Shown in pieces: positions 6,233 through 40,624 of a stretch of DNA of 64,000 nucleotides; the first letter of the stretch is position 1; every line of letters begins with the position of its first letter. Origin of the DNA: Cupriavidus metallidurans CH34. GTDB taxonomy: Bacteria > Pseudomonadota > Gammaproteobacteria > Burkholderiales > Burkholderiaceae. The DNA is taken from assembly GCF_000196015.1 (NCBI RefSeq), contig NC_007973.1:1860001-1924000 (forward strand). The letters run 5' to 3'. The notes under the pieces are model-generated. The model was not told where the DNA came from and made no database searches. It worked only from the letters and a program-made list of their open reading frames with translations. Made by a program: the position numbers and the translations under genes.

Positions 6233-7066
6233 ATGACCAACCCAGTCATCGTACGTTGCGTGGAGGGCGTGTTGTTCGCCACGCTCAACATCCCGGCCAC
6301 GCGCAATGCGCTCGCTCCGGAAGTGGTCGCCGTGCTGACGGACATCGTGGCGCAGGCTGAAGCCGACGTCGGCATCCGCGCGCTGGTGCTACGCGGTGCG
6401 GGTGGAACCTTCAGCGCGGGAGGCAACGTCGGCAATTTCCAGGCGCGGCTTGACGCCGATGTTGGCCACGAAGACCCGGTTGCCGCGCGCAACCGCCAGT
6501 TCGGTCATTTCATGACACGGCTGGCGACACTCCCGATACCCGTGATCGCGGCCGTGGACGGGCCGGCGATGGGCGGCGGCATGGGCATGGCATGTGCCGC
6601 AGACGTTGTGCTCGCAACGCGCGCGGCGCGGTTCGCCTTGTCGGAAACCTCGCTGGGCATCATTCCCGCACAGATCGCACCGTTCGTCGTCGGCCGTCTC
6701 GGCGCCGCGCTGACACGGCGCCTGGGCCTGACCGGCGAGCGTCTGGACGGCGTGGCGGCAGAGGCAGTCGGGCTCGTGGACCAGTTGGCCGATGACGCCG
6801 CCGGACTGGACGAACTGATTGCCGAGTGGCTGACCCGCATTGGCCGCTGCGGGCCACACGCCAACCGACAGTTCAAGGCATTGGTCGCCAGATGTGGCCA
6901 GACGCCGGTGGACAGCCTGCTTGATGACGCATCGCATCAGTTTGCCCAGTGCATGCGCACCGAAGGCACAGAAGGCATCGCGGCCTTCCGCGAAAAGCGC
7001 GAAGCGCGCTGGGTCACGCGATTTGATGCCGGCATCGTATGCGCCGCGCAATCGACAGACGCCTGA
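6233..7066 (+). CDS. Enoyl-CoA hydratase/isomerase family protein
   Basis: Crotonase-fold enzyme of 277 residues. The oxyanion-hole region GGTFSAGGNVGNF and the DGPAMGGGMGMA helix are present, and SETSLGIIP supplies a Glu in the usual second acidic position. It starts 8 bases after the dehydrogenase stop. The open frame extends far upstream into the dehydrogenase gene, but ATG 6233 gives the normal crotonase N-terminus (MTNPVIVRCVEGVLFATLN). By order it matches AtuE or LiuC: it would hydrate the product of the carboxylase. Confidence 0.9.
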   Translation: MTNPVIVRCVEGVLFATLNIPATRNALAPEVVAVLTDIVAQAEADVGIRALVLRGAGGTFSAGGNVGNFQARLDADVGHEDPVAARNRQFGHFMTRLATLPIPVIAAVDGPAMGGGMGMACAADVVLATRAARFALSETSLGIIPAQIAPFVVGRLGAALTRRLGLTGERLDGVAAEAVGLVDQLADDAAGLDELIAEWLTRIGRCGPHANRQFKALVARCGQTPVDSLLDDASHQFAQCMRTEGTEGIAAFREKREARWVTRFDAGIVCAAQSTDA

Positions 7067-7094
7067 ACGCGAGAAACTTTCCAGAGAGCATTCC

Positions 7095-9092
7095 ATGTCA
7101 GCTTCCTGCCGACCCTTCCATACCGTGCTCGTGGCCAACCGGGGCGAGATCGCCATCCGCATCATGCGGACGGCCCGCCGACTTGGGCTTGGCACCGTTG
7201 CCGTCTACTCCGAGGCCGACCGCCACAGCCCGCACGTGGCCAGCGCGGATCGGGCCGTGTGCATCGGTGCTGCCGCGCCGCGTGAGTCCTACCTCAACAT
7301 TGCAGCCATCATCGCTGCCGCGCGAAACGCTGGTGCCGATGCCGTCCATCCGGGCTATGGCTTCCTGGCCGAGAACGCCGAGTTCGCCGATGCTGTGACC
7401 GACGCCGGGCTGGTCTTCGTCGGTCCGCCGGCCAGCGCCATCCGTGCCATGGGCAACAAGGCCGAGGCCAAGCGCCTGATGCTGGCCGCGGACATGCCGT
7501 GCGTGCCCGGCTATCAGGGCGAGGCGCAGGACGACAAGACCTTGCTGGCAGAAGCCGGGCGCATCGGCTTTCCGCTCATGGTCAAAGCTGCAGCAGGCGG
7601 CGGCGGACGCGGCATGCGATTGGTGCCCGATGCCGCTGCATTGCCCGCGGCGCTCGCCAGTGCGCGGTCGGAAGCCGCGACGGCGTTCGGCAACGACGAA
7701 CTGATCCTGGAACGCGCGGTCATCCAACCACGCCACGTCGAGATTCAGGTCTTTGCCGACGCGCATGGCAATGTGATCCACCTTGGAGAGCGCGATTGCT
7801 CGGTGCAGCGCCGCCACCAGAAGGTGATCGAGGAAGCCCCATCGCCGGCGGTATCGCCCGCGCTGCGCGGCAGGATGGGCGAGGCAGCCGTGCGGGCGGC
7901 ACGGGCCATTGGCTACGTGGGAGCCGGCACGATGGAGTTTCTGCTCGATGCCGACGCCAACTTCTACTTTATGGAGATGAACACCCGGTTGCAGGTGGAA
8001 CACGCCGTGACCGAGGCTATCACCGGGTTCGACCTCGTGGCATGGCAACTGCAAGTTGCCGCGGGCGAAACGCTGCCAGCGACGCAGGATCAGGTGACGT
8101 TCGACGGCCACGCGATCGAAGTGCGCCTGACGGCCGAGGACGTGCCTGCAGGATTTCTTCCCCAGGGCGGTCCGGTGCTGCGCTGGCGCGCCCCGGAGTC
8201 GGGCCACGACGTGCGTGTCGACCATGCGCTGGAAACCGGGGGCACTATCCCCACGCACTATGACTCGATGATCGCCAAGCTCGTGGCCCATGGGCGCACA
8301 CGCGAGGAAGCGCGTCAGAAGCTGTTGCGAGCGGTGCAGGACTGCGTGCTGCTCGGCGTGCCATCGAACCAGCCGTTCCTGGCGTCGTGCCTTGCCAGTG
8401 CGGCGTTCGCTGGCAATGACGTGCACACGGGCTTCGTCGACGCGCATATGCAGGCGTCGTTGCAACCCACCGAACCATCCAGTCATGTGGTTGCCATTGC
8501 CGCACTGACGGCATCTGGTCAGTTGTCGCGGAGCGAGCCCGTCGCGCTATTGCGAATGACAACGTCGGTGAGACTGCACGCGGAAGGAAGACCGTGGGAC
8601 TCGGCAGTGCAGGCGACAGAAGAAGGCTGGCGCGTTACCGTCAGCGCGCGCGGAGAGACGGGCGCGCAGCCAGTCCACGTGCGGATGCTCCGCGACCATG
8701 CGGCTGACGGGGCGGCATGGATCGAGTGCGACGGTATGGCTCGGCCTGTTCTCCATGCTGACGACGATCTGGCAATACATCTGTTTGCCGACGGTCGGGC
8801 CTGGCGCTTCACCCGACACGACCCGCGCCGTCGAAATACGGAAGGGGAGTCATCAGGCGCGCTCACCGCGCCGCTGACGGCCCGGATCGTGGCCGTCAAC
8901 GTGGCGGAAGGTGATCGTGTGGAGGCGGGCCAGTCGCTGGTTGTGCTGGAAGCGATGAAAATGGAACACACGCTCGTCGCCCCGTTCGCCGGCGTCGTCT
9001 CGGAATTGTCGGCACGCGCTGGCGGACAGGCCAGCGCCGGCACCCTGCTGGTGCGCGTGGTTGCTGAGGAAGCAGGGGAGGGCAAGGCATGA
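7095..9092 (+). CDS. Acyl-CoA carboxylase, biotin carboxylase/biotin carrier (alpha) subunit
   Basis: Alpha subunit of 665 residues. The biotin carboxylase N domain (VLVANRGEIAIRI), the ATP-grasp Gly loop (KAAAGGGGRGM) and EMNTRLQVEHAVTE are in the first 450 residues. A linker domain follows, and the C-terminal biotinyl domain carries VLEAMKMEH with the acceptor lysine at residue 622. Partner of the beta subunit encoded at 3369-4988. The frame is open back to 6840, but ATG 7095 opens directly into the family N-terminus. The following gene overlaps it by 4 bases (ATGA), so translation is probably coupled. Size and architecture fit methylcrotonyl- or geranyl-CoA carboxylase alpha. Confidence 0.94.
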   Translation: MSASCRPFHTVLVANRGEIAIRIMRTARRLGLGTVAVYSEADRHSPHVASADRAVCIGAAAPRESYLNIAAIIAAARNAGADAVHPGYGFLAENAEFADAVTDAGLVFVGPPASAIRAMGNKAEAKRLMLAADMPCVPGYQGEAQDDKTLLAEAGRIGFPLMVKAAAGGGGRGMRLVPDAAALPAALASARSEAATAFGNDELILERAVIQPRHVEIQVFADAHGNVIHLGERDCSVQRRHQKVIEEAPSPAVSPALRGRMGEAAVRAARAIGYVGAGTMEFLLDADANFYFMEMNTRLQVEHAVTEAITGFDLVAWQLQVAAGETLPATQDQVTFDGHAIEVRLTAEDVPAGFLPQGGPVLRWRAPESGHDVRVDHALETGGTIPTHYDSMIAKLVAHGRTREEARQKLLRAVQDCVLLGVPSNQPFLASCLASAAFAGNDVHTGFVDAHMQASLQPTEPSSHVVAIAALTASGQLSRSEPVALLRMTTSVRLHAEGRPWDSAVQATEEGWRVTVSARGETGAQPVHVRMLRDHAADGAAWIECDGMARPVLHADDDLAIHLFADGRAWRFTRHDPRRRNTEGESSGALTAPLTARIVAVNVAEGDRVEAGQSLVVLEAMKMEHTLVAPFAGVVSELSARAGGQASAGTLLVRVVAEEAGEGKA

Positions 9093-21188: not shown

Positions 21189-21746
21189 ATGCATTTGACA
21201 TCCCCACATACCCTCTCCCTGACCTTCCAGCCCAAATACTCCTTAGCCATGCGCGCGTTGCACTGGCTGGTATTCCTGGGCGCCGTGGTGGCGGTTGCGG
21301 CGGTGGAGTTTCGCGACGTGTTCCCGAAGGGCAGCACCGAGCGGGCCGCGATGATGGCAATTCATGAATCCGCGGGCATCACGATATTGGTGTTGATGCT
21401 GTTGCGTCTGCTGGTGCGAGTGAGCCAACCGCTCCCTCCGCCGCCGGCCGGGGACCCACGGTGGATGGACCGCGCGGCAAGCGCCATGCATTTCGTGCTG
21501 TATGTGCTGATGCTGGCCATGCCGGTGCTCGGCATGTTGGCGGTGGCGTGGAAGGGCAGGACCATCCCGGTCTATGGCTTCCAGCTGGCGCTACCGCTCG
21601 CGATCAATGAGCCGTACTCAAAGCTCGCGAAGGAGATTCACGAAACTGGCGCCACGTTCGTGTACATCTTCGTCGGCCTGCACGCCGCAGCCGCCTTGTG
21701 GCACCAGTTCGTCCTGAAGGACCGGCTACTTCGCCGGATGATCTAG
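21189..21746 (+). CDS. Cytochrome b561 family membrane protein
   Basis: 185-residue inner-membrane di-heme cytochrome with four hydrophobic helices. Candidate heme-ligand histidines lie in MRALHWLVFL, AIHESAGI, MHFVLY, EIHETGA and GLHAAAALWHQF. Members of this family pass electrons between quinol, superoxide or periplasmic partners. An in-frame ATG at 21147 exists, but GAGGA just before 21189 supports the later start. Its last 21 bases overlap the end of the convergent NodT-like gene. Confidence 0.9.
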   Translation: MHLTSPHTLSLTFQPKYSLAMRALHWLVFLGAVVAVAAVEFRDVFPKGSTERAAMMAIHESAGITILVLMLLRLLVRVSQPLPPPPAGDPRWMDRAASAMHFVLYVLMLAMPVLGMLAVAWKGRTIPVYGFQLALPLAINEPYSKLAKEIHETGATFVYIFVGLHAAAALWHQFVLKDRLLRRMI

Positions 21747-23219
21747 GCTGGCCACCGTCTGCTGCGACCACCCGCCGCCCAGCGCCTTGTATAGGCTTGC
21801 GCGGCTGGTGAGTCTGGCCAGTTCGATCGTCACCATCTTCTTCTGCGCATCGTAGAGTTGCCGCTGCGCATCGAACACGGGGAAGTAGTCATCCACCCCG
21901 TTCTTGAAACGGATTTCCGCCAGCCGCTTGGTTTCGGAAACTTCCTTCGTCAGCGCCTCCTGCGCCACGGTCTGCCGGTCGTAGGTGCCGCGTGCAGCCA
22001 GGCCATCGGCAACTTCCCGGAATGCACCCTGGATCGTTTTCTCGTAAGCCGCCACGTTAATGTCCTTCTGCACCGTGGCAATATCGAGTCGTGCCTGGTT
22101 GGCCCCGGCGTTAAAAATCGGCAGTGTGATCTGCGGCGCGAACGCCCAGGCCATGCCGCCCGTGAACAGCGAGGCGAGCGCCGTGCTGGCCACGCCGACG
22201 GTGGCCGTCAGCGATATCTGCGGGAAGAAGGCCGCCCGCGCCGCGCCGATGTTGGCATTGGCCCCCTTGAGCTGATGCTCGGCCGCCATGATGTCTGGCC
22301 GTTGCTCCATCAGTGTCGATGGCACCCCGGCGGGCAACTCTGCCACGTACGAGTTATTCGCAAACGGCTGCGGGGGCGGCAGGTCCGCCGGTAGCTGGCC
22401 GCCGATCAACAACGCCAGCGCATTCTCGTCCTGCGCCACCTGTCGCGTGAACTGCTCCACATCCACCTGCGCGGTCTGCACCTGGGTCTGCCCGCGATGC
22501 ATGTCGATCTCCGCCATGCCGCCGGCGCTCTTGCTGCGGCTGATCATCAGCGCGGCGTCCTGCTGGACCTTGAGCGTTTCCTTCGACAGCCTGAGCAGTT
22601 CCTGGTCGGCCTGCCATGTCAGGTAGGCGCTGGCCACTTCCGCCACGAGACTGATCTGCGCGCTGCGCCGCACTTCCTCGATTGCCAGATATTGCTCCAG
22701 CGCCTGATGCTTGAGGCTGCGCACCCGCCCGAACACATCGAGCTCAAATGCATTGAAGCCTACGCCCGCAGTCCAGGAGTTGATCACGGCGTCCTGTCCG
22801 GGCGCGCGCAGATCGCTGTTCAGCCGAGTACTGGCAAAGCCTGCATTGGCGTTGATCGCCGGAAACTGCGCGGCACGCTGGATCCGGTACTGCGCTCGCG
22901 CCTGATCGATGGACAGCGTCGCGATACGCAGGTCACGGTTGTTCGCCAGCGCCAGCCCGATCAGCGTGCGCAGGCGTGGGTCGGTAAAGAAGTCCTCCCA
23001 GCCAAGGCTCGCGGCGGGCGTTGCCTGGTCCGGCCGCGCCTGGCCCGCGGGCCCCTTGTTGGCGCTTTCATAGGCAGGGCCGGTCGGGTAAGCCTGCGGT
23101 ACCGGTGACTCCGGACGTTGGTAGGTGGGTTCCAGCGAGCAGGCGGCAAGCGCCAGCGGCACGAGGAGGGCAGGGGTCCAGCGCGGCGGGCGAATCAGGG
23201 AGGTTGGCTTTCTTTTCAT
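21726..23219 (-). CDS. NodT-family outer-membrane factor lipoprotein of the polysaccharide operon
   Basis: 497-residue TolC-like channel. The signal peptide ends in a lipobox (ALAACSLEP), followed by the family start PTYQRPESPVP, and LATYLTWQADQELL-like helices and VPSTLMEQRPDIMAAEHQLKGANANIG are typical. NodT proteins usually serve RND pumps; here no RND gene is adjacent, and the gene starts 3 bases after the stop of a glycosyltransferase in a tight four-gene operon with an HlyD-like adaptor. It probably forms the outer-membrane exit for the glycan (inference). Confidence 0.92.
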   Translation of the reverse strand: MKRKPTSLIRPPRWTPALLVPLALAACSLEPTYQRPESPVPQAYPTGPAYESANKGPAGQARPDQATPAASLGWEDFFTDPRLRTLIGLALANNRDLRIATLSIDQARAQYRIQRAAQFPAINANAGFASTRLNSDLRAPGQDAVINSWTAGVGFNAFELDVFGRVRSLKHQALEQYLAIEEVRRSAQISLVAEVASAYLTWQADQELLRLSKETLKVQQDAALMISRSKSAGGMAEIDMHRGQTQVQTAQVDVEQFTRQVAQDENALALLIGGQLPADLPPPQPFANNSYVAELPAGVPSTLMEQRPDIMAAEHQLKGANANIGAARAAFFPQISLTATVGVASTALASLFTGGMAWAFAPQITLPIFNAGANQARLDIATVQKDINVAAYEKTIQGAFREVADGLAARGTYDRQTVAQEALTKEVSETKRLAEIRFKNGVDDYFPVFDAQRQLYDAQKKMVTIELARLTSRASLYKALGGGWSQQTVASLDHPAK

Positions 23220-23222
23220 GGT

Positions 23223-25199
23223 TCATCCGGTAAATGCGCGACGCAGCAATTGCACGATGGCCACACGCGGGCGGCCGCGGTGCGCGATGTTGTGAGCCGG
23301 TTCGCCGAACAGCATCCGGATTAGCCGATGGCGTCCCGCCATGTCCGGAAACAGTTCGATGCCTAGCAGATGGCCTTGCGTGCGCGCCACGCGGCAGGTC
23401 ACCCAGCCCAGTTCGGAGAGCCAGACCGCGCCCGTGGCGCCAGCTTCCACCCGACCGGCAGCATCGCTGATCAGGCCGATCCCGTTGCACGACATGTCCT
23501 GCGTGACGCCATCGAATTCACGTGGCAAGCCGTCGCTGCCGTAGATGCAAAGGCGGGCACGCTCGCGGTGTGGAAAGCGTTCTTCCTTGCGCGGCCGGGG
23601 CAGCTCGAAACAGACCAGCAACGAGGCCAGGTACAGGACCATCGAGATCACGGTCCATCCGATGTTGAAGACCACACCGCTGGCCGTGCCGTCGGCGGCC
23701 ACGGCACGCCCAAGGCCCATGGCGGCCAGAACAAACAGTGCGCCATAGAACGCGGCGAACTTGCCGTGGACGACCAGCTTTGAACGGTCCAGCCCCTTGT
23801 TCGTGACCTTGAACGGCCTGCCGAACGGTTTGAAGATGGCACTGACCAGCGTTGCGGAAACCGCCATGGCCGCCACGATCTGCGTGACCTCGGTGAAGAT
23901 CGGCATCGCACGCGCGCCTGTGATCCAGATGCTATAGGCCCAGTAGAGCAGCAACGCCGGCACGCCGAACGCGAGGAACTGCAGCGGCTCGCCGTACAGC
24001 GTCGGCACATTGAAGTACCAGTACAGCAGCGGCCCGGCCAGCAGCATCAGCGTGAACGGGCGGCTCAACCAGTGCAGCAGCCCGTGCACATAGTGCAGGC
24101 GTTCGCGCAACGTGTAGCCGGGTCCGCGCAGCGGCCCATCGGCGGTGAGCGCCACCTGGATCGTGCCCAGTCCCCAGCGGCTGCGCTGGCTGATGTACTC
24201 AGGCAGGCCCTCTGCCGACAGGCCCACGCTCAGGCGCTCATTGAGCCAGCGCGTGATATAGCCATGCGGCATCAGCTTGTAGGTCAGGTGAATATCTTCC
24301 GTCACGGTGCCGATCGGGAAACCACCGATCCGGTCCAGCGCCTCGCGGCGCACGACGAACGATGTGCCGATGCAGAACGCGGTACCCCAGGCGTCCTTCG
24401 ACGGCTGCATGACATCGAAGAATGCGCGTTGCTCGTCCACCCAGCACTCCGTGGAGCGAAGGTTGTATTGGATCGGGTCGGCGTTGTAGTAGAACTGGGG
24501 CGTCTGCACCACGCCGACCTGTGGATCGTCGAACAGCCCAACGATACGTAGCAGGATGTTCCGGTTGGGTGCGAAATCGGCGTCGAGCACCATGATGAAT
24601 GGCGCGCCGCCATCGAGTTCCGCGCTGTGCCGCAGGCCGTTGTTCAGGTTGCCGGCCTTGGCGTGGGCGTTATCGGGCCGGGTCACGTAGCGTGCCCCGA
24701 CCTGATCGCAGAACTCGCGCAGCCAGTCGCGACGGGTGTCGTCGAGCACCCAGACCCGGAAGTTCGGATAGTCGATATCCAGCGCGGCAACGATGGTCTT
24801 CTCGAGCACGTCGAGGCCTTCGTTGTACGTGGCGATGAAAATGTCCACCGGCGGTGCTTCCCGCCCGCGTCGCAATGCGGTCTCGCCGGCGTCAGCCTCG
24901 GCGCTGTGATCGGACGTGCGGGTCATGATGCCGATCGAGATCAGCGTGTACGCGATGGTCAGGCTCTCGAAGCCGAAGAACGCATGCGCCCAAAGGCTCG
25001 GGAAGTCCATGCGCCATTCCGGCAAGGTGTCGGTGAATCGCCATACGTAATAGACCAGCAGCAGCACGCCGGCCGCGGCGCCGAAAAGCCAGCGGTCCAG
25101 GGTGCGCTGCCGGTCGCCGCGCAGGCAGAGCAGCGCGATCAGGAATGCGCCCGCATTGATCTGCATGAGCATACGGCCATCGAGATACTCGGCAAACAT
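23223..25199 (-). CDS. Cellulose-synthase-like glycosyltransferase (GT2) with PilZ domain
   Basis: 658-residue inner-membrane processive GT2. Two hydrophobic segments precede the catalytic domain, which carries all family residues: the Asp pair in VLDDTRRDW (153-154), DAD (206-208), TED (300-302) and QRSRW (338-342). Further membrane helices follow, then a C-terminal PilZ domain with RKEER (from 537) and DMSCNG (568-573), the RxxxR and D/NxSxxG c-di-GMP-binding motifs. AGGAGT precedes ATG 25199; the frame is open further upstream but overlaps the previous gene. It should polymerise a nucleotide-sugar into a beta-glucan-like chain, activated by c-di-GMP. BcsB and BcsC genes are absent. Confidence 0.93.
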   Translation of the reverse strand: MFAEYLDGRMLMQINAGAFLIALLCLRGDRQRTLDRWLFGAAAGVLLLVYYVWRFTDTLPEWRMDFPSLWAHAFFGFESLTIAYTLISIGIMTRTSDHSAEADAGETALRRGREAPPVDIFIATYNEGLDVLEKTIVAALDIDYPNFRVWVLDDTRRDWLREFCDQVGARYVTRPDNAHAKAGNLNNGLRHSAELDGGAPFIMVLDADFAPNRNILLRIVGLFDDPQVGVVQTPQFYYNADPIQYNLRSTECWVDEQRAFFDVMQPSKDAWGTAFCIGTSFVVRREALDRIGGFPIGTVTEDIHLTYKLMPHGYITRWLNERLSVGLSAEGLPEYISQRSRWGLGTIQVALTADGPLRGPGYTLRERLHYVHGLLHWLSRPFTLMLLAGPLLYWYFNVPTLYGEPLQFLAFGVPALLLYWAYSIWITGARAMPIFTEVTQIVAAMAVSATLVSAIFKPFGRPFKVTNKGLDRSKLVVHGKFAAFYGALFVLAAMGLGRAVAADGTASGVVFNIGWTVISMVLYLASLLVCFELPRPRKEERFPHRERARLCIYGSDGLPREFDGVTQDMSCNGIGLISDAAGRVEAGATGAVWLSELGWVTCRVARTQGHLLGIELFPDMAGRHRLIRMLFGEPAHNIAHRGRPRVAIVQLLRRAFTG

Positions 25200-25213
25200 C
25201 GTTACTCCTATCG

Positions 25214-26569
25214 TCACTCGTTGGGTCCGTTGGCGGGACCATTGCTCGGACCACTGACGGACGCCGTCGTGGCTGCGCAGTTCGCCCGGCATCCTCGCGG
25301 CTGGAACGGATTCCAGCCCGTGGCGGCCAGTACGGCCCAGGCCGTGGCGCCAAGGTGGGGCAGGTGGAAGTAGTAAAAGTCCTCGGTCTTCGAATCAGGG
25401 CCGATCGATAGCCCCGTTTGAATCCGTTTCTCGGGTGTGGCGAAGAGCATTCCGTCCGGCGCGCGCTGTGACAACAACAGCGGCCAGAGCGGACCCGCGA
25501 CATCGGCATGGTTGGTGGCCAGCAGCACCAGCGCGGCCTGGCCGGTGCCCTCCGTCCAGACGCCATCGGGATCGGCCTTGAAGCCGAATCCGCCATTGAC
25601 GGCGTGCCGGGTGCGCGCCCAGTCCAGCGAGCGCTGCCAGGTGCCGGCGGCGTCCGGGATGGCAATCAACGGCCACAGCGATGCATCGAGCGCCGAGGGC
25701 CCGCCGTTCAGCGTCCGCCCGTCATCGCGGGTGCCGATCGCGAAACGCCCCTCGCGCGACTGCCACATGCTCTCGACGAAGTGCCGCGCCCGCTCCGCGT
25801 CCGTGTTCCAGCGCGGATCATTGCTGTATCTGGCCAGCCAGCGGAACGCGGCATAGGCATCGACGTTGTGCTCGGTGGATTTCCACCCCTGGCGCTCGGG
25901 ATTCGGCTCGTGTCCGAAGTACCCGCCGATGTATGCGGCGGGACTGTCCGCGTTGAAGGTTTCCTTGTCGACCCATCCCATCAGCGCCTTGGCCCCGTCT
26001 AGATAGGCGGGCGCGCGCGTGGCCTCATATGTAGCCAGCAGAAGCAGGGCGGCCCAGACGACATTGCCGGTGGCGGTGCCCACCTGGTAGCGGTCCTCGA
26101 ACCAGCGCTTGCTGGCGTCGTCCCACCAGCCTGGCAATGGCACAGGCCCGTTAGGTATCGCGCCCGCCCGGTAGGCATTGCGCAGGCGGCCGTCATGGTA
26201 GTGGCGGTCGCGGCTCATCCCCGCCAGCACGCCATCGGCAATACGCCGCGCCGCATCGCGCTGGCCGCAGGCGATCAGTGCGATGCCGGCCAGCGCGTTG
26301 TCGTAGACGAAAGCCGATTGACGCAGCGGCGCCGGCAACGGCTCGCCACCGGGCGCCGGCTCGTAGCTGGCCAGCCATATCGGACCCGAGCCCGGAATGG
26401 CCGTCACGCGCTGCGCCAGCGTCTGGCACCCGCTATCGCGCAGTTGCGTGCGGGTGTCGGCTGACGATGCTGCAAAGGTGGGCGATGTGGCCAGAATGCA
26501 TGATGTGGCGAGGTAAGTAGCCAGCCGGATGCCCCCGGCTGCCAACCCCTTTGACGTATGACGCTGCAC
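25214..26569 (-). CDS. Exported glycosidase-like (alpha/alpha barrel) protein of the polysaccharide operon
   Basis: 451-residue protein with an N-terminal signal sequence (ending near SPTFAASSA). The body has repeated helix-rich blocks such as FVYDNALAGIALIACG, GNVVWAALLLLATYEAT, STEHNVDAYAAFRWLARY and WTEGTGQAALVLL, the pattern of (alpha/alpha)6-barrel glycosidases. I cannot name a precise family. A GTG at 26569 with AGGAGA 5 bases upstream is a better start than the unsupported ATG 26623. It lies between the HlyD-like and GT2 genes (14-base gap to the latter) and may trim or edit the polymer in the periplasm. Confidence 0.8.
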   Translation of the reverse strand: MQRHTSKGLAAGGIRLATYLATSCILATSPTFAASSADTRTQLRDSGCQTLAQRVTAIPGSGPIWLASYEPAPGGEPLPAPLRQSAFVYDNALAGIALIACGQRDAARRIADGVLAGMSRDRHYHDGRLRNAYRAGAIPNGPVPLPGWWDDASKRWFEDRYQVGTATGNVVWAALLLLATYEATRAPAYLDGAKALMGWVDKETFNADSPAAYIGGYFGHEPNPERQGWKSTEHNVDAYAAFRWLARYSNDPRWNTDAERARHFVESMWQSREGRFAIGTRDDGRTLNGGPSALDASLWPLIAIPDAAGTWQRSLDWARTRHAVNGGFGFKADPDGVWTEGTGQAALVLLATNHADVAGPLWPLLLSQRAPDGMLFATPEKRIQTGLSIGPDSKTEDFYYFHLPHLGATAWAVLAATGWNPFQPRGCRANCAATTASVSGPSNGPANGPNE

Positions 26570-26639
26570 GGTTGTCTCCTTCCTGCGGGCGTTGCGTGAG
26601 TGGCTTCGCGCCTGCTCGATCAAACCGGATAGGCTCTGG

Positions 26640-27971
26640 TCAGATCAGGCGGGTGAACCACGGGCGATCGAGGCTGACCTTGGCCCAATGGCCAAGCGCG
26701 CACCGATCGGTACTGCCACTGCCGCGATTGCGCAGGTCGGGGAGCGGCTTGTTGAGCTTCGCGATCAGGTAAATCTCGTTCTTCTCGATGGGCGGGAAGG
26801 GAACGAAGTAGCGCGCCTGATCGCCTTCCGGCGCGCGCGGCATGATCTCTGCGACAGTGCCCGGCTGCGGCGTAGGAACACCATCGACCAGCACGGTCAG
26901 CTTCGCGCCCGGCAGCAGATCCTTGCTGAGGCTGCGCGGGAACACGGCCACGACGTTGGGCTGGCTGCAGTTGGTGGTGCGCATCAGCGTGGCGCCGGCG
27001 GCAACCCGCGTGCCCGGCGGCGTCAGCACATCCTCGACGATGCCACTCGCGTACGCCTTGATATCGAGGTTGGAGACCCGTTCGAGACGTTCCTGTTCCG
27101 CCGTCACGAGCTTGTCGACCTCGGCACCGTACTGTTCCAGTTGCGTGATCTCGGCCTGCGTCTGCGTGATCTCGGCCTTCAGCTCATCCTGCTTCTGCGA
27201 CAGCGCGCCCAGCGCGCCGTCCGCGCTCGAACTGAATACCTTGCTACGCGCTGCTTCGCTGCTGTTGCGCGCGCTGTCGAGCTCCGCCTGGATGGCATCG
27301 CGCGAACCGGCCAGCACGGTAAGCTGGTTCCGTGACGCATCGGTATAGGCCTGGCTGACCGCGCCCGCCCATTGCATGGCCTGATTGCGATTGACCACGT
27401 CCTCCTGCGCGTCGATCTGCTGCTTCGCTACCGCCAGCCGGGCCTCGATGCCACGCACGCGCGAGGCGTGCTCGCGATCCGCCGAGGCCTGGTAACGCTT
27501 GATATCACCACCCGTCGACGCCATGCGCGTCTGGTCCGCCTCGAGCTTCACCTTCGCGGCCTCCAGGCGTTTCTGGTTATCGAGTTGTTTCCCGGTCAGT
27601 TCCACCAGCAGCGCGCGGTCCATATTCGGGTTCTGCAACGCCATCAGTGGATCGCCCGCTTTGAAGCTGCCGCCTACCGTCACCACCTGCTTGGTGACAA
27701 CGCCTTCCACCGGCGTGGTTACGAGGGTGACAGGACTATTCACGATCGCGCGCTCGGACGACCGCGTGAAGATGTACGGGAACATCACCGACAGGACCAC
27801 CCAGATGATGAACACCACCATCCCATAGCTGGCCAACCGAGGCACCACCCGCCACAAGGGCAGGCCTGGCACGCCCGCGCGCCGTTGCATTAACGAGTCG
27901 TGGTGCGGTGGGTGTTGAGACGGTTTGACCCGTGCGGGTACCGAGTCCTTCTGGTCAACTTTCTTATCCAT
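26640..27971 (-). CDS. HlyD/membrane-fusion-like protein of the polysaccharide operon
   Basis: 443-residue inner-membrane-anchored periplasmic adaptor. One helix near residues 50-70 (LASYGMVVFIIWVVLSVMF) is followed by a lipoyl-like half (VEGVVTKQVVTVGGSFKAGDPL), a long coiled coil (KQLDNQKRLEAAKVKLEAD to QEELERVSN-like), and the second half (SGIVEDVLTPPGTRVAAG). GGAGG precedes ATG 27971. It is the first gene of the operon. Adaptor plus GT2 recalls BgsB/BgsA, which make mixed-linkage beta-glucan in Sinorhizobium, and Alg44/Alg8 of alginate. The adaptor probably couples polymer export to the NodT channel. Confidence 0.9.
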   Translation of the reverse strand: MDKKVDQKDSVPARVKPSQHPPHHDSLMQRRAGVPGLPLWRVVPRLASYGMVVFIIWVVLSVMFPYIFTRSSERAIVNSPVTLVTTPVEGVVTKQVVTVGGSFKAGDPLMALQNPNMDRALLVELTGKQLDNQKRLEAAKVKLEADQTRMASTGGDIKRYQASADREHASRVRGIEARLAVAKQQIDAQEDVVNRNQAMQWAGAVSQAYTDASRNQLTVLAGSRDAIQAELDSARNSSEAARSKVFSSSADGALGALSQKQDELKAEITQTQAEITQLEQYGAEVDKLVTAEQERLERVSNLDIKAYASGIVEDVLTPPGTRVAAGATLMRTTNCSQPNVVAVFPRSLSKDLLPGAKLTVLVDGVPTPQPGTVAEIMPRAPEGDQARYFVPFPPIEKNEIYLIAKLNKPLPDLRNRGSGSTDRCALGHWAKVSLDRPWFTRLI

Positions 27972-28431
27972 GCCGCCTCCGGATAAAAGGTGGGCCACCC
28001 GAGATAGCCAAAGCCATCGCGGTCAGCAATAGGCAACAAGCTGCCGCCACGCGAGCGAATCCCCACCCGCGCAGTGCGCAGTGCTTCGTCCCCCAGATTG
28101 TTTGTTATGCGCCGTTGCCCCGGGCCGTCACAACGCCGCCGGAACAGGCTTCTGGATCGATACCGCCGACCCGATGAATTCACGCGCCCGATTGCCGATA
28201 TGATTGTGGGCACGTGTAGATACAGTGAGGCGCAAGCGCCAGAGAAACTCAGGACACAACATCACTTGATTGATGCGATGCAGCGCAGGAGCGTTTCAAA
28301 GTTAGACAAGTTGAGCCCTGCGTGCTGTAAGAATGTGTAAGGCCTGCATTTCAAGTCGCTTACAACGCGGCAAGTTCACCGCTTGGCATTACACTTGCGC
28401 TGCGACACTCGAGAACGATAAGGAGCTTTGA
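27972..28431. other. Gene-free divergent promoter region (460 bp)
   Basis: Holds the promoters of the leftward polysaccharide operon and the rightward universal stress gene. I see no convincing gene; an 88-codon plus-strand frame (28074-28340) has no ribosome site or recognisable domain. Near the right end are TGTAAG repeats (28336-28341, with a reverse copy CTTACA at 28359-28364) upstream of a sigma-54-like promoter. Confidence 0.7.
28383..28399 (+). promoter_or_regulatory. Sigma-54 (RpoN) promoter candidate for the universal stress gene
   Basis: TTGGCATTACACTTGCG has the GG and GC elements 10 bases apart, as in the -24/-12 consensus TGGCAC-N5-TTGCW. The start codon lies 33 bases after its end, with AAGGAG in between, so spacing is right for transcription. 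TGTAAG repeats upstream might be activator sites. Confidence 0.5.
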
Positions 28432-34767: not shown

Positions 34768-36234
34768 CTAACGCTTTAAATGCAGTCCTTCCGTTGCCGC
34801 CGGTTCTGACGTCGCCAACGGGTCGACAGCGGTACTCTGAGCGTCAGCCCCATCCTTAGCCTGCCAGCCTCCCCCAAGCGAGCGAAAGAGCGCTACGCTA
34901 GAGACCAACTGACGTCGATGAATACTCTCGAGAGTGCGTTCGTTAGTGAGCGTCGTTGCCTCCACCACATTAACGTCGAGGTATGCCGCCGCGCCTTTCT
35001 TGTAGCGATCCGTCGCCTGCGCGAGCGCGCGTTGCGACGCCTGGACTGCGGCTTCCTGACTCGATGCAGCCTCCTTCAGGAGTCTCGTGGCCGCGTAGCT
35101 GTCCTCCACGTCTTGGACCGCCGTTAGCACGGTCTGCCGGTAGTCGGCCGCAGCAGCATCGAATTGCGCCTGGGCACTGTCCACGCCGGCTTGGCGCTTC
35201 CCTCCGTCGAAGATTGTCGCAGCCAAGGCAGGCCCCACCGCCCAGAAGCGACCTGGGGCCGTAAGGAGTCCGGCCAAGCCTGAGCTCTCGACACCTCCGC
35301 TCAGGTTGAGCATGAGACTCGGAAAGAACGCGGCCTTAGCAACGCCGATTTGGGAATTGGCCGCCGAAACACGACGTTCTACTGCAGCTATGTCCGGACG
35401 TCGCTTCAATAACTCGCTGGGAACTGCGGCAGGTACTACAGGAAGTTGCGTTCCATAGGCGTCATGTGGTGCGATCGAAAACGTGCTGGCAGGCTCGCCC
35501 ACCAGTGTTGCGAGCGCATGTTGCAGTTGGGTTCGCGCAAGAGTTAGGTCAGCCAATTGAGCTTTAGTACTGTCGCGCTGAGCTTGAGCCTGCGCAACAT
35601 CGCTCTCAGCCGCAATTCCGCCCTTATATCTGTTAGTGACCATCGAGAGCACCGAAGAATAAGCGTCCACCGTCTGCCTTAGCAGCGATGCCTCGCGGTC
35701 AAGCGAGCGGATCGCAAAGTAATCCGTAGCGACTTCCGCCTGCAAGGTCAGCCGAACTGCGGCGACATCGTCCGCACTTGCTTGCACTCGAGACGTTGCC
35801 GCATCGACGGCATTGCCAATTCGCCCAAAAAGGTCAGGCTCCCAGGTCGCACTGAATCCGATAAGCCGGTCGGGCGTTGTCTTACCGGCCAGCGACCGTC
35901 CAACTACGTTTGCCGACACATGACTACTGGTAGCGCTGGCATTCGCGCCGGCTGTCGGAAAGTACGCTGCGCGTGCAGCATCGGCCTGGGCCCGGGAATC
36001 TTGCAGAAGGGCTATCGATCTCTTGAGCGTTTGATTTGTCACATCGATGCGTCGAATTAACGCATCAAGGTCGTCGTCATGGTAAGACGTCCACCACTCA
36101 GCGGGAATCTGACTCAGGACTGGATCGCTCGCTTCTGCATACTTCGCGGGAAGATCCATCTCCGGAATGTGGTAAGTCGGTGCGAAAGAGCACCCCGCTA
36201 GCCATATACAAACCGCACTTATGGCTAGCCTCAT
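34768..36234 (-). CDS. NodT-family outer-membrane factor of the RND efflux system
   Basis: 488-residue outer-membrane channel lipoprotein. The lipobox is AGCSFAPTY, followed by the family start; VPSELLKRRPDIAAVERRVSAANSQIGVAKAAFFP and the coiled-coil repeats are typical. ATG 36234 overlaps the stop of the adaptor gene (TGATG), with AGGAG upstream; the GTG at 36237 is an alternative. Third gene of the RND operon. It is a different protein from the NodT of the polysaccharide operon. Confidence 0.93.
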   Translation of the reverse strand: MRLAISAVCIWLAGCSFAPTYHIPEMDLPAKYAEASDPVLSQIPAEWWTSYHDDDLDALIRRIDVTNQTLKRSIALLQDSRAQADAARAAYFPTAGANASATSSHVSANVVGRSLAGKTTPDRLIGFSATWEPDLFGRIGNAVDAATSRVQASADDVAAVRLTLQAEVATDYFAIRSLDREASLLRQTVDAYSSVLSMVTNRYKGGIAAESDVAQAQAQRDSTKAQLADLTLARTQLQHALATLVGEPASTFSIAPHDAYGTQLPVVPAAVPSELLKRRPDIAAVERRVSAANSQIGVAKAAFFPSLMLNLSGGVESSGLAGLLTAPGRFWAVGPALAATIFDGGKRQAGVDSAQAQFDAAAADYRQTVLTAVQDVEDSYAATRLLKEAASSQEAAVQASQRALAQATDRYKKGAAAYLDVNVVEATTLTNERTLESIHRRQLVSSVALFRSLGGGWQAKDGADAQSTAVDPLATSEPAATEGLHLKR

Positions 36235-37430
36235 CACGATTTAGCTCCTTGCGACGCGACCGTCTGCGGCGAAGACACTCTCACACGCGCGCCGCCGGCA
36301 AGCCCATCCCCCGGGTTCACGATAACCTTGGCACTCGCAGCCAGTCCGCCCAAGACCTCTACGTGCGAACCAAAGTCACGTCCCAACTGGATCTTCTGAA
36401 TCGCGACCTTCCCGTTTTGGTCGATGATTGCCACCGATGCCCCGCCGGCCGGAAACATAAGCGTACTCGCGGGTAGATCCAATCCCGCCCTATCCGCTTC
36501 CGGCACGATATGGACCTCGGCGTAGGCACCTGGGAGGATCTTTCCACCCTGACTGTCCACATCGAGCTCGACTCGGAGACTACGGGTCACCGGGTCCATT
36601 GCGCCCGCCGTCCGCGTAATCGTGGCCGGGAAGTGGTGGCCCGGCGATTGCGGTAGCGCCAACCAAGCCTTGGTGCCTGGCGCAACCGCTGCACTCACTG
36701 ACTGTGGGACCTGCACATAGACACGAAGACGGTTGCCTGCCGAGATGTGAAACAGTTCACGCCCCTGGTTAGGCGCACTCCCCGCATCAATAAGCGCACC
36801 GGCGTCTACGTTCCGTGCGGTAATCACACCATCGAACGGCGCCCGAATCTGCGTGTACGAAGCCAGTTGCGCGACGCGCGCTGTATTCGAGCGAGCCGAA
36901 GCTAGCAATGCCGCTTTGGCCTGCATGTCAGCGACCTTCTGGTCGGTTTCCTGCTGCGCTACCGAGTTGGTGGACTGCAGATCCTTCCACCTGTCGGCCG
37001 TAGTCTTCGCGAGTGCGTAGTTGGCAGAGGCAGTCTCTTCGTCTGCGCGTGCTTGCCGAAGTTGGTCCGCGACTTCCGGAGCGTCGATTTCGGCCAGCAG
37101 CTGGCCAGCCTTTACCTCAGTACCGATATCCACATACCAATTTCGAAGGTATCCATTCACCCGCGCATGGATGGCCGCATCCTGATAGGCGCGCACATCG
37201 GCAGGCAGCGTGATCTCCTGCGAGGATGCCGCCGGCTTCGGGGAAACAATACCGACAACCGGAGTCTGTGCGTCGATACTGCGCTTTTGCAGGGCAGCCT
37301 CACCATGCACTCGAGGGACGATTCCCACAATCAGCGCTGCAGCTGCCACTACCCCCACCGCGATTGCTGTCTTGATGTGCCTGCGGGACAACGGCACGCG
37401 ACTATTGTTCTTTCGTTCGATTTGGGTCAT
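36234..37430 (-). CDS. RND efflux membrane-fusion (adaptor) protein
   Basis: 397-residue periplasmic adaptor. One N-terminal helix (TAIAVGVVAAAALIVGIVP) is followed by the lipoyl halves (YLRNWYVDIGTEVKAGQLLAEID and YTQIRAPFDGVITARNVDAG), a coiled coil, and the beta-barrel (PGTKAWLALPQSPGHHFPATITRTAGAMDP). ATG 37430 overlaps the permease stop by 4 bases (ATGA), which decides against the upstream ATG 37487. Middle gene of the efflux operon. Confidence 0.94.
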   Translation of the reverse strand: MTQIERKNNSRVPLSRRHIKTAIAVGVVAAAALIVGIVPRVHGEAALQKRSIDAQTPVVGIVSPKPAASSQEITLPADVRAYQDAAIHARVNGYLRNWYVDIGTEVKAGQLLAEIDAPEVADQLRQARADEETASANYALAKTTADRWKDLQSTNSVAQQETDQKVADMQAKAALLASARSNTARVAQLASYTQIRAPFDGVITARNVDAGALIDAGSAPNQGRELFHISAGNRLRVYVQVPQSVSAAVAPGTKAWLALPQSPGHHFPATITRTAGAMDPVTRSLRVELDVDSQGGKILPGAYAEVHIVPEADRAGLDLPASTLMFPAGGASVAIIDQNGKVAIQKIQLGRDFGSHVEVLGGLAASAKVIVNPGDGLAGGARVRVSSPQTVASQGAKS

Positions 37431-40400
37431 ACCGGACTCTGTACTTTCACTGTGTTTTGGCGCGAGTTGGCTCGCTTTTCGAGCCAACCATGCAAGAGCG
37501 CGAAGAATGTGGGGACGAGCACGAGGGTCGCGACGGTTCCAAAGGCCAGACCGCCAATAACGACGCGGCCCAGCGGTGCGTTTTGCGCGCCCGCACTTCC
37601 CGCTCCCAATGCCATGGGAACCATGCCGAACAGCATCGCAAGGGCCGTCATCACGACAGGCCGGAATCGTCCGAACCCTGCCTCATACGCTGCTTCGACG
37701 GCTCCCTTCCCTTCGTTCAATAGCTCCCGGGCACGGCTAACAACGAGAATGCTGTTAGCCGTTGCAATGCCAACGCACATGATTGCCCCCGTCAGCGCAG
37801 GGACACTAATCGTTGTGTAGGTGGCAAATAGCATCCATGCCATCCCGGACAGCGCGACCGGCAACGCGCCGACAATGGCAAGCGGGTCCAGCCACGACTG
37901 GAAGTTCACGACCATCAGCAGGTAGACCAGCGCAATGGCCGCAGCCAGTCCCGTAAGCAATCCAGCAAACGAAGCCTGCATTGTTTGGACCTGGCCGCGA
38001 ACCACAATGCGAGAGCCTGCCGGCAAGCCTGGACGGACACTGTCGACGACACGCTGCACGTCCGCAGACACTGCTCCCAGGTCGCGGCCGCGCACAGACC
38101 CAAACAAATCCAGTACCGGTTGTACGTTGTAGTGGGAAATTACACCCGGCTGGCTGCTTCGATTGACTGTGCCAAACTGGCCGAGCTGTGCCGCACCGCC
38201 CTGCCTAAGCGTCTCTGCACCACTCCCAAGCGGGATATTCGACAGTGTCTGGAGGGAGTCCATGGCGTACTGCGGAACCGAAATCAGCATCGGGTAGCTC
38301 ACCCCATTCTTGGGGTTCAGCCAGAAGTTTGGAGACGTCTGGCTACTTCCCGACAACGCGATAAGAAGGTTCTGTGCCACGTCACGTTGCTGCATCCCTG
38401 CCTGCAGCGCTCGGGTGCGGTCTACGTTCACCGTCAATGCAGGCTGATCATCCGGTTGCTGCAGATGTAGGTCGCTAAGGCCGCGCACGGCCGACAGCTT
38501 CCGCAACAAGTCATCTGCGACCGTGCGGTTTCCGGCAGCATTATTGCCCACGATCTGCACATCAATCGGTGCAGGAAGGCCAAAATTCAGGATTTGGCTG
38601 ACCATATCGCCGGACAAAAATGAGAAGCTCACTCCTGGGAATGCCACCGGTAACTCGGCATCGAGCTTTTCGATGAGCGCCGAAGACTTTCCAGCAGAGG
38701 GATTCAACGAGATCAGAATCTCGGCATCGCCGGTTCCGATGGGCAGCGCGGAGTCGTAAGTCAAGTTGATGCCGCTGACGGGGAGGCCGATGTTGTCCAC
38801 AATGCTCGAAACATGAGTAGGACCCACCGTTTCGCGGATCTTCGTCTCAACCTGGTCAACCAGGCGCGCAGTCTCTTCAATCCGCGTACCTGTGCGCGCT
38901 CGCATATGAAGGCGGATCTCTCCACTATCCACTGCCGGGAAAAAGTCTTGGCCCAGAAACGGCACTAAAGTCATTGAGCACACGCAGAGCATTGCGAAAA
39001 GTGCCATAGCGCGCCGCGGCGATCCCAGCGCAAGCTCCAGAACATTTGCGTAGGACTGGCGGACACGCTCGAAACTCTGCTCGAATTTGGAATGCACGTT
39101 AGAAAACCAGCGGGCAAAGCGGCCTTCCGGATGATGCCCGCTAGGCTCCCGGCTGAAGAGATAGTGGGCCAACGTGGGGATCAATGTGCGCGAGAGGAAG
39201 TATGACGCCATCATCGCAAACACCACCGCCTCTGCGAGCGGAACGAACAGGTAACGAGCGACTCCGCTCAGCATGAACATCGGTAAGAACACGATACAAA
39301 TGCAGAGGGTAGATACGAGCGTCGGCAATGCAATCTGTGCAGACCCATCCAGGATCGCGTCCTCCAGCGGCTTGCTCATCTCCCGGTGGTGCGTAATATT
39401 CTCGATCGCTACCGTCGCATCGTCTACTAGCACACCTACTGCAAGAGCCAAGCCGCCCAACGTCATGATGTTCAAAGTTTGGCCCAACGCCGACAAAGCA
39501 ATGAGGGCAGCCAAGACCGACAGCGGAATGGTGACAGCAATAATGAGAGTGGCGCGCCAGCTTCCAAGGAATAGCAGAATCATCGCCGCAGTCAGGCACG
39601 CGGCTATCAATGCTTCATGCAACACGCCGTCAATAGCAGATGTCACGAAGATTGACTGGTCGGAGATAGGTTGTACCACCAGAGATTTCGGCAATCCGGC
39701 CGTCACGTCTGGAAGCATTGCCTTGATTTGCGAGATGATGGAGAGCGTCGACGCGTTCCCGCTCTTCTCGATCTCCAAGAGCGCCGAACGCTTTCCGTCA
39801 CGCCGAACGACATTCAATTGAGGAGCGTAGCCGTCGCGTACCTGCGCGACGTCACGCACGTAGACCGTGCCTTCCGGCCCACTGCGAATTGGCAAGTCAT
39901 TGAGCGCCGAGATGGTTTGGGTGCTGCCATTCAGATCCACCCGATACTCAAGCGCGCCAATCTTTGCCGTTCCACCCGGCAAGGTGAGATTCTGGGCATT
40001 AATCGCATTGACCACATCGAGAGGCGACAGACCTCGCGCCTGCAGTGCTTCCGTATTGAGGTCGACAGCCACCTGGCGGACCTTGCCACCGTATGGCAGA
40101 GGAATTGATGCCCCCTGCACGGTTGCAAGCTGAGTACGGATAAAGCTGTTACCCAGATCGTAGAGTTCTTGCTCGGGAAGCGTGTCACTGCCTAGGGCTA
40201 GCCGGAGGATTGGGACGGTCGAGGCGTTGTAGCTCAGCACCAGTGGAGCAGTCGTCCCTGGTGGCATCGTCTTCAAAAGCGATTGTGCACCGGACGTCGT
40301 CTGCGCTATAGCGCGATTTATATCTGCCCCTGGGTGAAAAAACACCTTGATAACGCTTACGCCCGGCAGCGTTTGGGACTCGATATGCTCGATGTCATCC

Positions 40401-40624
40401 ACGCTGTTCGTAAGGGAGCGCTCATATCCTGTCACGATCCGCTGCGACATATCTTGCGCAGAAAGGCCGTTGTAGCTCCACACGACGCTAACAACTGGGA
40501 TGTCAATGGAAGGAAAAATGTCTGTCGGCGTGCGCAGAATGGCCAACGGCCCGCCCAAAAGCAAAAGTATTGCCAAAACGACAAAAGTATATGGCCGACG
40601 TAGCGCAAGCCGCACAATCCACAT
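37427..40624 (-). CDS. RND-family efflux permease (HAE-1 type)
   Basis: 1065-residue inner-membrane proton/drug antiporter, normal length for the family, with 12 helices and two large periplasmic loops. Helix 4 carries the paired acid residues for the proton relay in GVLVDDATVAIENI. PTDIFPSIDIPVVSVVW and PPGTTAPLVLSYNAS are typical of the HAE-1 subgroup rather than of CzcA-type metal pumps. First gene of the operon, divergent from a two-component system; a CusR-type box lies between. The exported compound is unknown. Confidence 0.94.
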   Translation of the reverse strand: MWIVRLALRRPYTFVVLAILLLLGGPLAILRTPTDIFPSIDIPVVSVVWSYNGLSAQDMSQRIVTGYERSLTNSVDDIEHIESQTLPGVSVIKVFFHPGADINRAIAQTTSGAQSLLKTMPPGTTAPLVLSYNASTVPILRLALGSDTLPEQELYDLGNSFIRTQLATVQGASIPLPYGGKVRQVAVDLNTEALQARGLSPLDVVNAINAQNLTLPGGTAKIGALEYRVDLNGSTQTISALNDLPIRSGPEGTVYVRDVAQVRDGYAPQLNVVRRDGKRSALLEIEKSGNASTLSIISQIKAMLPDVTAGLPKSLVVQPISDQSIFVTSAIDGVLHEALIAACLTAAMILLFLGSWRATLIIAVTIPLSVLAALIALSALGQTLNIMTLGGLALAVGVLVDDATVAIENITHHREMSKPLEDAILDGSAQIALPTLVSTLCICIVFLPMFMLSGVARYLFVPLAEAVVFAMMASYFLSRTLIPTLAHYLFSREPSGHHPEGRFARWFSNVHSKFEQSFERVRQSYANVLELALGSPRRAMALFAMLCVCSMTLVPFLGQDFFPAVDSGEIRLHMRARTGTRIEETARLVDQVETKIRETVGPTHVSSIVDNIGLPVSGINLTYDSALPIGTGDAEILISLNPSAGKSSALIEKLDAELPVAFPGVSFSFLSGDMVSQILNFGLPAPIDVQIVGNNAAGNRTVADDLLRKLSAVRGLSDLHLQQPDDQPALTVNVDRTRALQAGMQQRDVAQNLLIALSGSSQTSPNFWLNPKNGVSYPMLISVPQYAMDSLQTLSNIPLGSGAETLRQGGAAQLGQFGTVNRSSQPGVISHYNVQPVLDLFGSVRGRDLGAVSADVQRVVDSVRPGLPAGSRIVVRGQVQTMQASFAGLLTGLAAAIALVYLLMVVNFQSWLDPLAIVGALPVALSGMAWMLFATYTTISVPALTGAIMCVGIATANSILVVSRARELLNEGKGAVEAAYEAGFGRFRPVVMTALAMLFGMVPMALGAGSAGAQNAPLGRVVIGGLAFGTVATLVLVPTFFALLHGWLEKRANSRQNTVKVQSPV

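Follow-up and report, generated by a model that had tools for sequence, protein, structure and literature searches.

How a polymer crosses the periplasm and the outer membrane where BcsB and BcsC take no part is an open question in the polysaccharide field, and it is raised anew by a four-gene operon of Cupriavidus metallidurans CH34, found on a stretch of 64,000 nucleotides (assembly GCF_000196015.1, contig NC_007973.1, positions 1,860,001 to 1,924,000 of the forward strand), the whole of which is here called the window and provides the coordinates below. The operon encodes an HlyD-type periplasmic adaptor, an exported barrel-type protein designated GHL, a GT2 synthase ending in a PilZ domain, and a NodT-type outer-membrane factor (OMF). 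We propose, with a probability of about 0.8, that together they form a synthase-driven tripartite polysaccharide exporter, in which a beta-glucan synthase gated by cyclic di-GMP (c-di-GMP) would feed an adaptor-channel conduit. The features on which this proposal is built are the following:

26640..27971, minus strand: HlyD-type periplasmic adaptor (start ATG at 27971; Pfam HlyD_3 / HlyD_D23 above cut-off)
27354..27389, minus strand: RLS motif, predicted OMF-docking tip of the adaptor (R204-x3-M208-x6-S215, residues counted from the GTG at 27998, not from the ATG at 27971)
25214..26569, minus strand: GHL, exported protein, putative glycoside hydrolase or lyase (start GTG at 26569)
23223..25199, minus strand: GT2 beta-glucan-type synthase, putative, 658 amino acids (start ATG at 25199; Glycos_transf_2 and PilZ above cut-offs)
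23304..23591, minus strand: C-terminal PilZ domain of the synthase (RxxxR at 23565-23579, DxSxxG at 23481-23498)
23793..23813, minus strand: FxVTxKG gating-loop motif of the synthase
21726..23219, minus strand: NodT/OprM-type OMF lipoprotein (start ATG at 23219; lipobox LAAC at 23139-23150)

Four genes packed on one strand with gaps of 70, 14 and 3 bases, in the order adaptor-GHL-synthase-NodT, were the core of the original prediction made from the letters of the window, and the coordinates, together with Pfam and NCBIfam domains, bear this out, the four start codons having been picked by eye from ribosome-binding sites. The adaptor has an N-terminal membrane anchor (identified by eye) and a long predicted hairpin, and GHL has a Sec signal peptide (also by eye) followed by a predicted alpha/alpha-barrel fold. 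The NodT product scores 390 bits against a cut-off of 210 with TIGR01845 (outer_NodT) and also exceeds the cut-off of Pfam OEP; its ATG shares the frame of the synthase, from which a stop codon and one further codon separate it, and an OMF frame directly after the synthase stop recurs in 10 of 47 loci. Within the four genes there is no Pfam match to BcsB or BcsC.

In the proposed machine, the inner-membrane GT2 enzyme would build a polymer from an activated sugar, with UDP-glucose as the most likely substrate and a beta-glucan, perhaps of mixed linkage, as the most likely product, and would thread the chain outward through its own membrane channel, the C-terminal PilZ domain of the Cupriavidus protein gating the active site on c-di-GMP. 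The adaptor would dock onto its dedicated NodT partner by the RLS motif at the hairpin tip, the two making a sealed periplasmic conduit in place of BcsB and BcsC, and GHL, acting in the periplasm, would cleave or edit the polysaccharide, trimming or clearing chains in the manner of BcsZ in the Bcs system. The support is sequence-based and consists of the gene set and its order, the catalytic, gating, PilZ and docking motifs, the gene fusions described below, and presence in genomes devoid of BcsB; from these we infer the identity of the polymer, the assembly of the complex, the response to c-di-GMP and the role of GHL.

Gene-order conservation across genomes had been put forward as a check on the operon, and the order adaptor-GHL-synthase-OMF is indeed kept in all 18 Cupriavidus loci fetched, among them two draft loci with frame-broken genes (the OMF in L034, the synthase and the OMF in L037). 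GHL is present in 44 of the 60 genomes of the genus; outside Cupriavidus its occurrence is patchy, with matches (E <= 1e-20) in 3/399 genomes of the order and 10/398 of the phylum, each count taking in CH34 and a second member of its genus. In species genomes, a scan that kept the best 80 of 546 relatives, and so leans to near ones, found the four genes in order at 44 loci, the same with an upstream OMF at one, GHL-synthase-OMF at contig edges at three, adaptor-GHL-synthase at 18 (with the OMF fused in frame in three, namely Variovorax L125 and L126 and Pseudomonas putida L114), adaptor-synthase-GHL at four, GHL alone at nine, and GHL-OMF at one. Seventy of these 80 loci bear a synthase, with a separate OMF in 48, a fused OMF in 3, and neither in 19, all alphaproteobacterial; thus, an OMF lies beside or is fused to the synthase in 51/51 beta- and gammaproteobacterial loci versus 0/19 alphaproteobacterial ones. 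The four-gene set is a real unit whose arrangement is not due to chance, and the view that it is one functional unit is supported by the invariant order in Cupriavidus and by the fusion of synthase and channel genes.

These fusions were examined more widely with the OMF half of a Variovorax protein as query, which retrieved 74 proteins at E <= 1e-20: 41 synthase-OMF fusions of more than 1000 amino acids, 29 RND pump-OMF fusions (the permease-OMF proteins P0171-P0181 and P0183-P0200), which provide precedents for an inner-membrane partner fused to an OMF, and four proteins with an OMF only. At the junction, 43/43 synthase fusions have a hydrophobic run with a lipobox at its end (42 by pattern, P0140 by eye), these being the 41 and two Variovorax proteins that may fall into the same clusters; the named ones among these 43 come from Variovorax or Ramlibacter. 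Fused synthase-NodT frames with an internal lipobox lie at 9266-12703 in L125, at 9206-12604 in L126, and in L190-L209, and in the genus of G436, a genome holding a 100% match to the fusion protein of Variovorax sp. SG517, a continuous near-full-length fusion match occurs in 20 of 61 genomes and a match in two pieces in one more. There is no stop codon at the junction in any of the 20 Variovorax-type loci read (one per genome), so that a TGA flagged inside many Variovorax matches was rejected as a junction stop. An internal translation start was rejected as a conserved explanation of the fused frame, given that neither a start codon nor a Shine-Dalgarno sequence is kept: Shine-Dalgarno-like words precede a possible internal start in 6 of 23 loci (L125 and L190 encoding the same protein), in L206-L208 an Ala occupies the place of the Met or Val seen in the remaining loci of their group, and L194 is devoid of start codons from -41 to -9. 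In single species internal initiation may occur. On the simplest reading, the fusion would be one precursor cut by signal peptidase II. The odds seem about even for the fuller proposal, that a single synthase-channel precursor in Variovorax and its relatives, cleaved by signal peptidase II, would supply both ends of the conduit in equal dose, with the Cupriavidus operon as the unfused form of an exporter class distinct from Bcs, Alg and Pga.

The part of the conduit between synthase and channel is where the adaptor would come in. It carries RNQAMQWAGAVS, which is the RLS pattern RxxxLxxxxxxS with M in place of L, at what would be the tip of the hairpin, judging by sequence; the account of this motif in PMC3391258 places it at the tip by which MacA, AcrA and MexA bind TolC and mentions a T form for HlyD itself. 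The combination of R, L/M and S is found in 33/33 beta- and 14/14 gammaproteobacterial, 1/2 Variovorax and 18/22 alphaproteobacterial rows of the alignment; G212, A213 and S215 are invariant across the 49 beta, gamma and Variovorax rows, and the second RLS position (L/M) is more variable than the others, ranking 31 of 182 hairpin columns. At the same tip columns, all four rows of BgsB-type adaptors have R, L and G followed by T (three rows, from L050, L053 and L179) or S (one row), and the mixed-linkage glucan system to which these belong may also dock onto a TolC-type channel, in that case encoded elsewhere. The window holds, in addition, a separate OMF-adaptor-RND pump set with an OMF of its own (34768-40624, minus strand), about 7 kb upstream of the operon; an RND adaptor in the window has no RLS match. 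A search of solved structures with the adaptor sequence found nothing.

The channel, in turn, was placed in a tree of 70 OMFs that includes 16 others of the CH34 genome. The 34 OMFs of betaproteobacterial operons form one clade (0.99), the 16 of gammaproteobacterial and Variovorax operons form a second (0.997) together with one GHL-adjoining OMF, and all 50 fall inside one split along with four others, namely this GHL-adjoining OMF and three of the other CH34 ones. The operon OMF would on this evidence be a channel recruited from RND-type OMFs and staying with the synthase. That an adaptor and a channel take the place of BcsB and BcsC, as the original prediction had it, is upheld by the RLS motif and by the finding, detailed next, that 15 of the 44 GHL-bearing Cupriavidus genomes lack BcsB.

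The same prediction had declared BcsB and BcsC missing, which is true of the operon but not of the genome, where both occur about 0.58 Mb away with their own BcsA. Matches there extend to BcsA, BcsB, a GH8 (BcsZ-type) enzyme, BcsC (whose N-terminal part spans the border between two stretches read), BcsE and BcsG, in an E. coli-like locus (G000:C3, about 2463000-2479300; L030, L031) adjoined by a PAS-GGDEF-EAL protein. With such a set elsewhere, including its own BcsA, the cellulose of CH34 is probably made by the Bcs system. The existence of these genes also lends something to the idea that the operon provides a second cellulose synthase, making ordinary cellulose with Bcs parts encoded elsewhere and accompanied by an adaptor and a NodT that are efflux remnants, as does the fact that, of the curated models, CelA scores best with the synthase, albeit far below cut-off (372 versus 699 bits). 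We consider it very unlikely, because BcsB is missing in 15 of 44 genomes with GHL (12 of 39 once genomes under 90% completeness or over 5% contamination are set aside), because the four BcsB-less genomes read of the 15 (G044, G046, G051, G052) keep all four genes, albeit with synthase and OMF frame-broken in the G052 draft, because no pump is encoded among the four, and because the synthase groups outside BcsA and is fused to an OMF in Variovorax.

The distribution of the two systems in the genus is itself informative. With GHL as a proxy for the operon (18 loci were read, including four from BcsB-less genomes), the 60 Cupriavidus genomes divide into 29 with GHL and BcsB, 15 with GHL only, 16 with BcsB only, one counted BcsB (G034) being a broken fragment, and none with neither; the chance of an empty last class with those margins is 0.0043, ignoring kinship. 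In the 54 genomes with completeness of 90% or more and contamination of 5% or less, the numbers are 27, 12, 15 and 0, and the chance is 0.011, likewise ignoring kinship. This shows that the operon is independent of BcsB and suggests that operon and Bcs system can stand in for each other.

What the synthase makes, and under which control, can be approached from its motifs and relatives. It retains DDT, DxD, TED, QxxRW and the FxVTxKG gating loop, besides the PilZ motifs, and has seven hydrophobic segments (3+4). Its catalytic region shares 43.7% identity with the pSymB-encoded protein of S. meliloti that we label BgsA from its place behind an adaptor gene, versus 31-33% with five BcsA proteins, which agrees with the earlier naming of BgsB/BgsA as a near relative. 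In a tree of the catalytic region the family lies outside the BcsA clade, several deep nodes being weakly supported (57-79) and NodC being a distant outgroup. The segments DEQRxFFD and LNERLSxGL are common to the synthase and BgsA and missing in the four BcsA rows shown, and the match to TIGR03030 (BcsA-type catalytic subunit), at 372 bits, falls short of the cut-off of 699.

The PilZ domain (29.2 bits versus a cut-off of 22.5) has RFPHR and DMSCNG, in accord with the c-di-GMP-binding consensus RxxxR plus (D/N)x(S/A)xxG. RxxxR is kept in 24/35 beta (one of the misses, in L064, is in a frame-broken gene), 3/14 gamma, 1/2 Variovorax and 0/22 alpha rows, (D/N)x(S/A)xxG in 34/35, 14/14, 1/2 and 0/22, and both motifs together in 24/35, 3/14, 1/2 and 0/22, respectively. 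The c-di-GMP gating that had been claimed thus fits CH34, where both motifs are present, but is not general: control through PilZ is likely in Cupriavidus, and, judged by the motifs, is not a rule across the family. In the 22 alphaproteobacterial rows the gating loop stays as FKVTxKG (FKITDKG in L052) and the PilZ motifs are gone; these synthases are likely under some other control. In PMC6629876, RMET_RS08705 is one of four PilZ genes listed for CH34 and has a conserved binding motif; effector transcripts are reported there to fall under cadmium, the drop for RMET_RS08705 not being significant in planktonic cells. From the order of PilZ genes on the chromosome, we take RMET_RS08705 to be the operon synthase; the genome has five PilZ gene matches (the fifth on C4) versus the four of that list.

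The exported protein had been called glycosidase-like, and of this its export and a weak similarity to alpha/alpha-barrel enzymes stand, whereas no Pfam or NCBIfam model matched it that would assign it to a family. Profile searches gave weak matches to GH105, GH76, GH127, cellobiose 2-epimerase and alpha-1,6-mannanase, and also to GlcNAc 2-epimerase and glucuronyl C5-epimerase C-terminal models. The alignment of 58 members has many invariant carboxylates (e.g., D108, D139, D177, E251, D255, E358 and D415), which suggests that GHL is a working enzyme. The weak matches to GH105 and the two epimerase-type models would also suit a machine of the same build that exports a non-glucan polymer, such as an amino-sugar or uronic-acid one, with GHL as the matching lyase or epimerase. 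A non-glucan product appears unlikely, in view of the two segments common to the synthase and BgsA and missing from BcsA, the distance from NodC (24.5% identity), and the weakness of the PgaC match (60 bits versus a cut-off of 422).

Some GHL genes stand apart from any synthase. Two of these, L105 and L113, adjoin phoH-ybeY housekeeping genes, with an OMF and a corC-like gene coming after GHL in L113, a setting that offers no clue to function, and in Rhodanobacter L115 the neighbour of an orphan GHL gene (6550-7776) has a Pfam TcA_TcB_BD match.

Several observations weigh against a dedicated exporter as proposed here. GHL occurs without a synthase at 10 of the 80 loci of the species scan, one of them with an OMF only, and the alphaproteobacterial sets have no OMF gene in the stretch read and no intact PilZ motifs. 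A promoter scan found no sigma-70-like promoter and a scan for terminator-like sites found no more than chance would give, so that co-transcription rests on gene spacing. Two of the 15 BcsB-less genomes are incomplete drafts (78% and 86%). In CH34, 64 half-domain matches correspond to about 32 OMF genes, and three of the 16 others placed in the tree fall inside the split of operon OMFs. RND matches number 25, with some genes split over more than one; since several of its RND genes have no adjoining OMF, NodT could also serve pumps. Taken further, adaptor and NodT might be an efflux or small-molecule exporter co-regulated with the synthase and not carrying its polymer, to which the grouping of those three OMFs with the operon ones (two of the three lie beside RND pumps) and the naming of the NodT-family model after efflux transporters would be congenial. 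Such an arrangement is hard to square with the direct synthase-OMF fusions, with gaps of at most about 210 bases in the 18 Cupriavidus loci, which leave no pump gene between the four (genes outside were searched in part), and with BgsB-type adaptors, which are likewise paired with a synthase gene and have R-L-T or R-L-S at the tip, and we regard it as highly improbable.

How such an exporter relates to known systems depends on the part considered. The Bcs system likewise has a GT2 synthase with PilZ and gating loop and the gene of an exported barrel-type enzyme in its operon, BcsZ having a barrel fold; the differences are that the unit described here is devoid of BcsB and BcsC, that its synthase is a remote relative of BcsA by the identities given above, and that GHL misses the GH8 model. 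The mixed-linkage beta-glucan system BgsBA of Sinorhizobium and Rhizobium (PMC5567048, PMC9495663) resembles it in combining an HlyD-like adaptor with a GT2 of BgsA type that has a gating loop and seven predicted membrane helices, and the synthase core shows 43-44% identity to three proteins assigned to BgsA from their gene arrangement. BgsA, in the same descriptions, is without PilZ and has another c-di-GMP-binding C terminus, whereas the CH34 enzyme does have PilZ motifs there, and no OMF or GHL gene is annotated beside BgsA in the two loci viewed. The RLS-motif adaptor (as the motif is set out in PMC3391258) and the OEP-family channel recall AcrAB-TolC and HlyBD-TolC, except that the inner-membrane partner here would be a polysaccharide synthase and not a pump.

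A close likeness is seen with XcsAB-TolC of cyanobacteria, for which a 2025 review (PMC12430437) sets out a model of synthase, adaptor and TolC exit, described there as lacking experimental validation and as having parts that no single operon encodes; in S. elongatus and N. punctiforme, by the same account, the genes of synthase, adaptor and endoglucanase are clustered. Compared by description and gene content, the CH34 operon has the same content of a PilZ synthase, an HlyD-like adaptor and a TolC-family exit, with no BcsB or BcsC in the unit, and GHL may be the counterpart of the separate endoglucanase. It follows that the principle is not undescribed, as had first been supposed, since that account already proposes it. 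It differs in that TolC is outside the operon in the cyanobacterial model as reviewed, while the OMF is in the operon or fused to the synthase here, and in that neither Pfam nor NCBIfam has a model for the family of the exported protein.

Three things seem new, as far as searches of openly licensed literature go: a compact operon that includes an OMF of its own and an unnamed exported protein, the beta- and gammaproteobacterial spread of this operon, and the synthase-channel fusion. Database entries for relatives of the fusion bear the names "efflux transporter outer membrane subunit" or "cellulose synthase (UDP-forming)". The fusion suggests that several of the Variovorax records under the first name may belong to polysaccharide export, not drug efflux. 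As to passage across the periplasm and outer membrane, the presence of all the parts in one operon of a non-photosynthetic model strain, and in one reading frame in another genus, makes that question directly testable.

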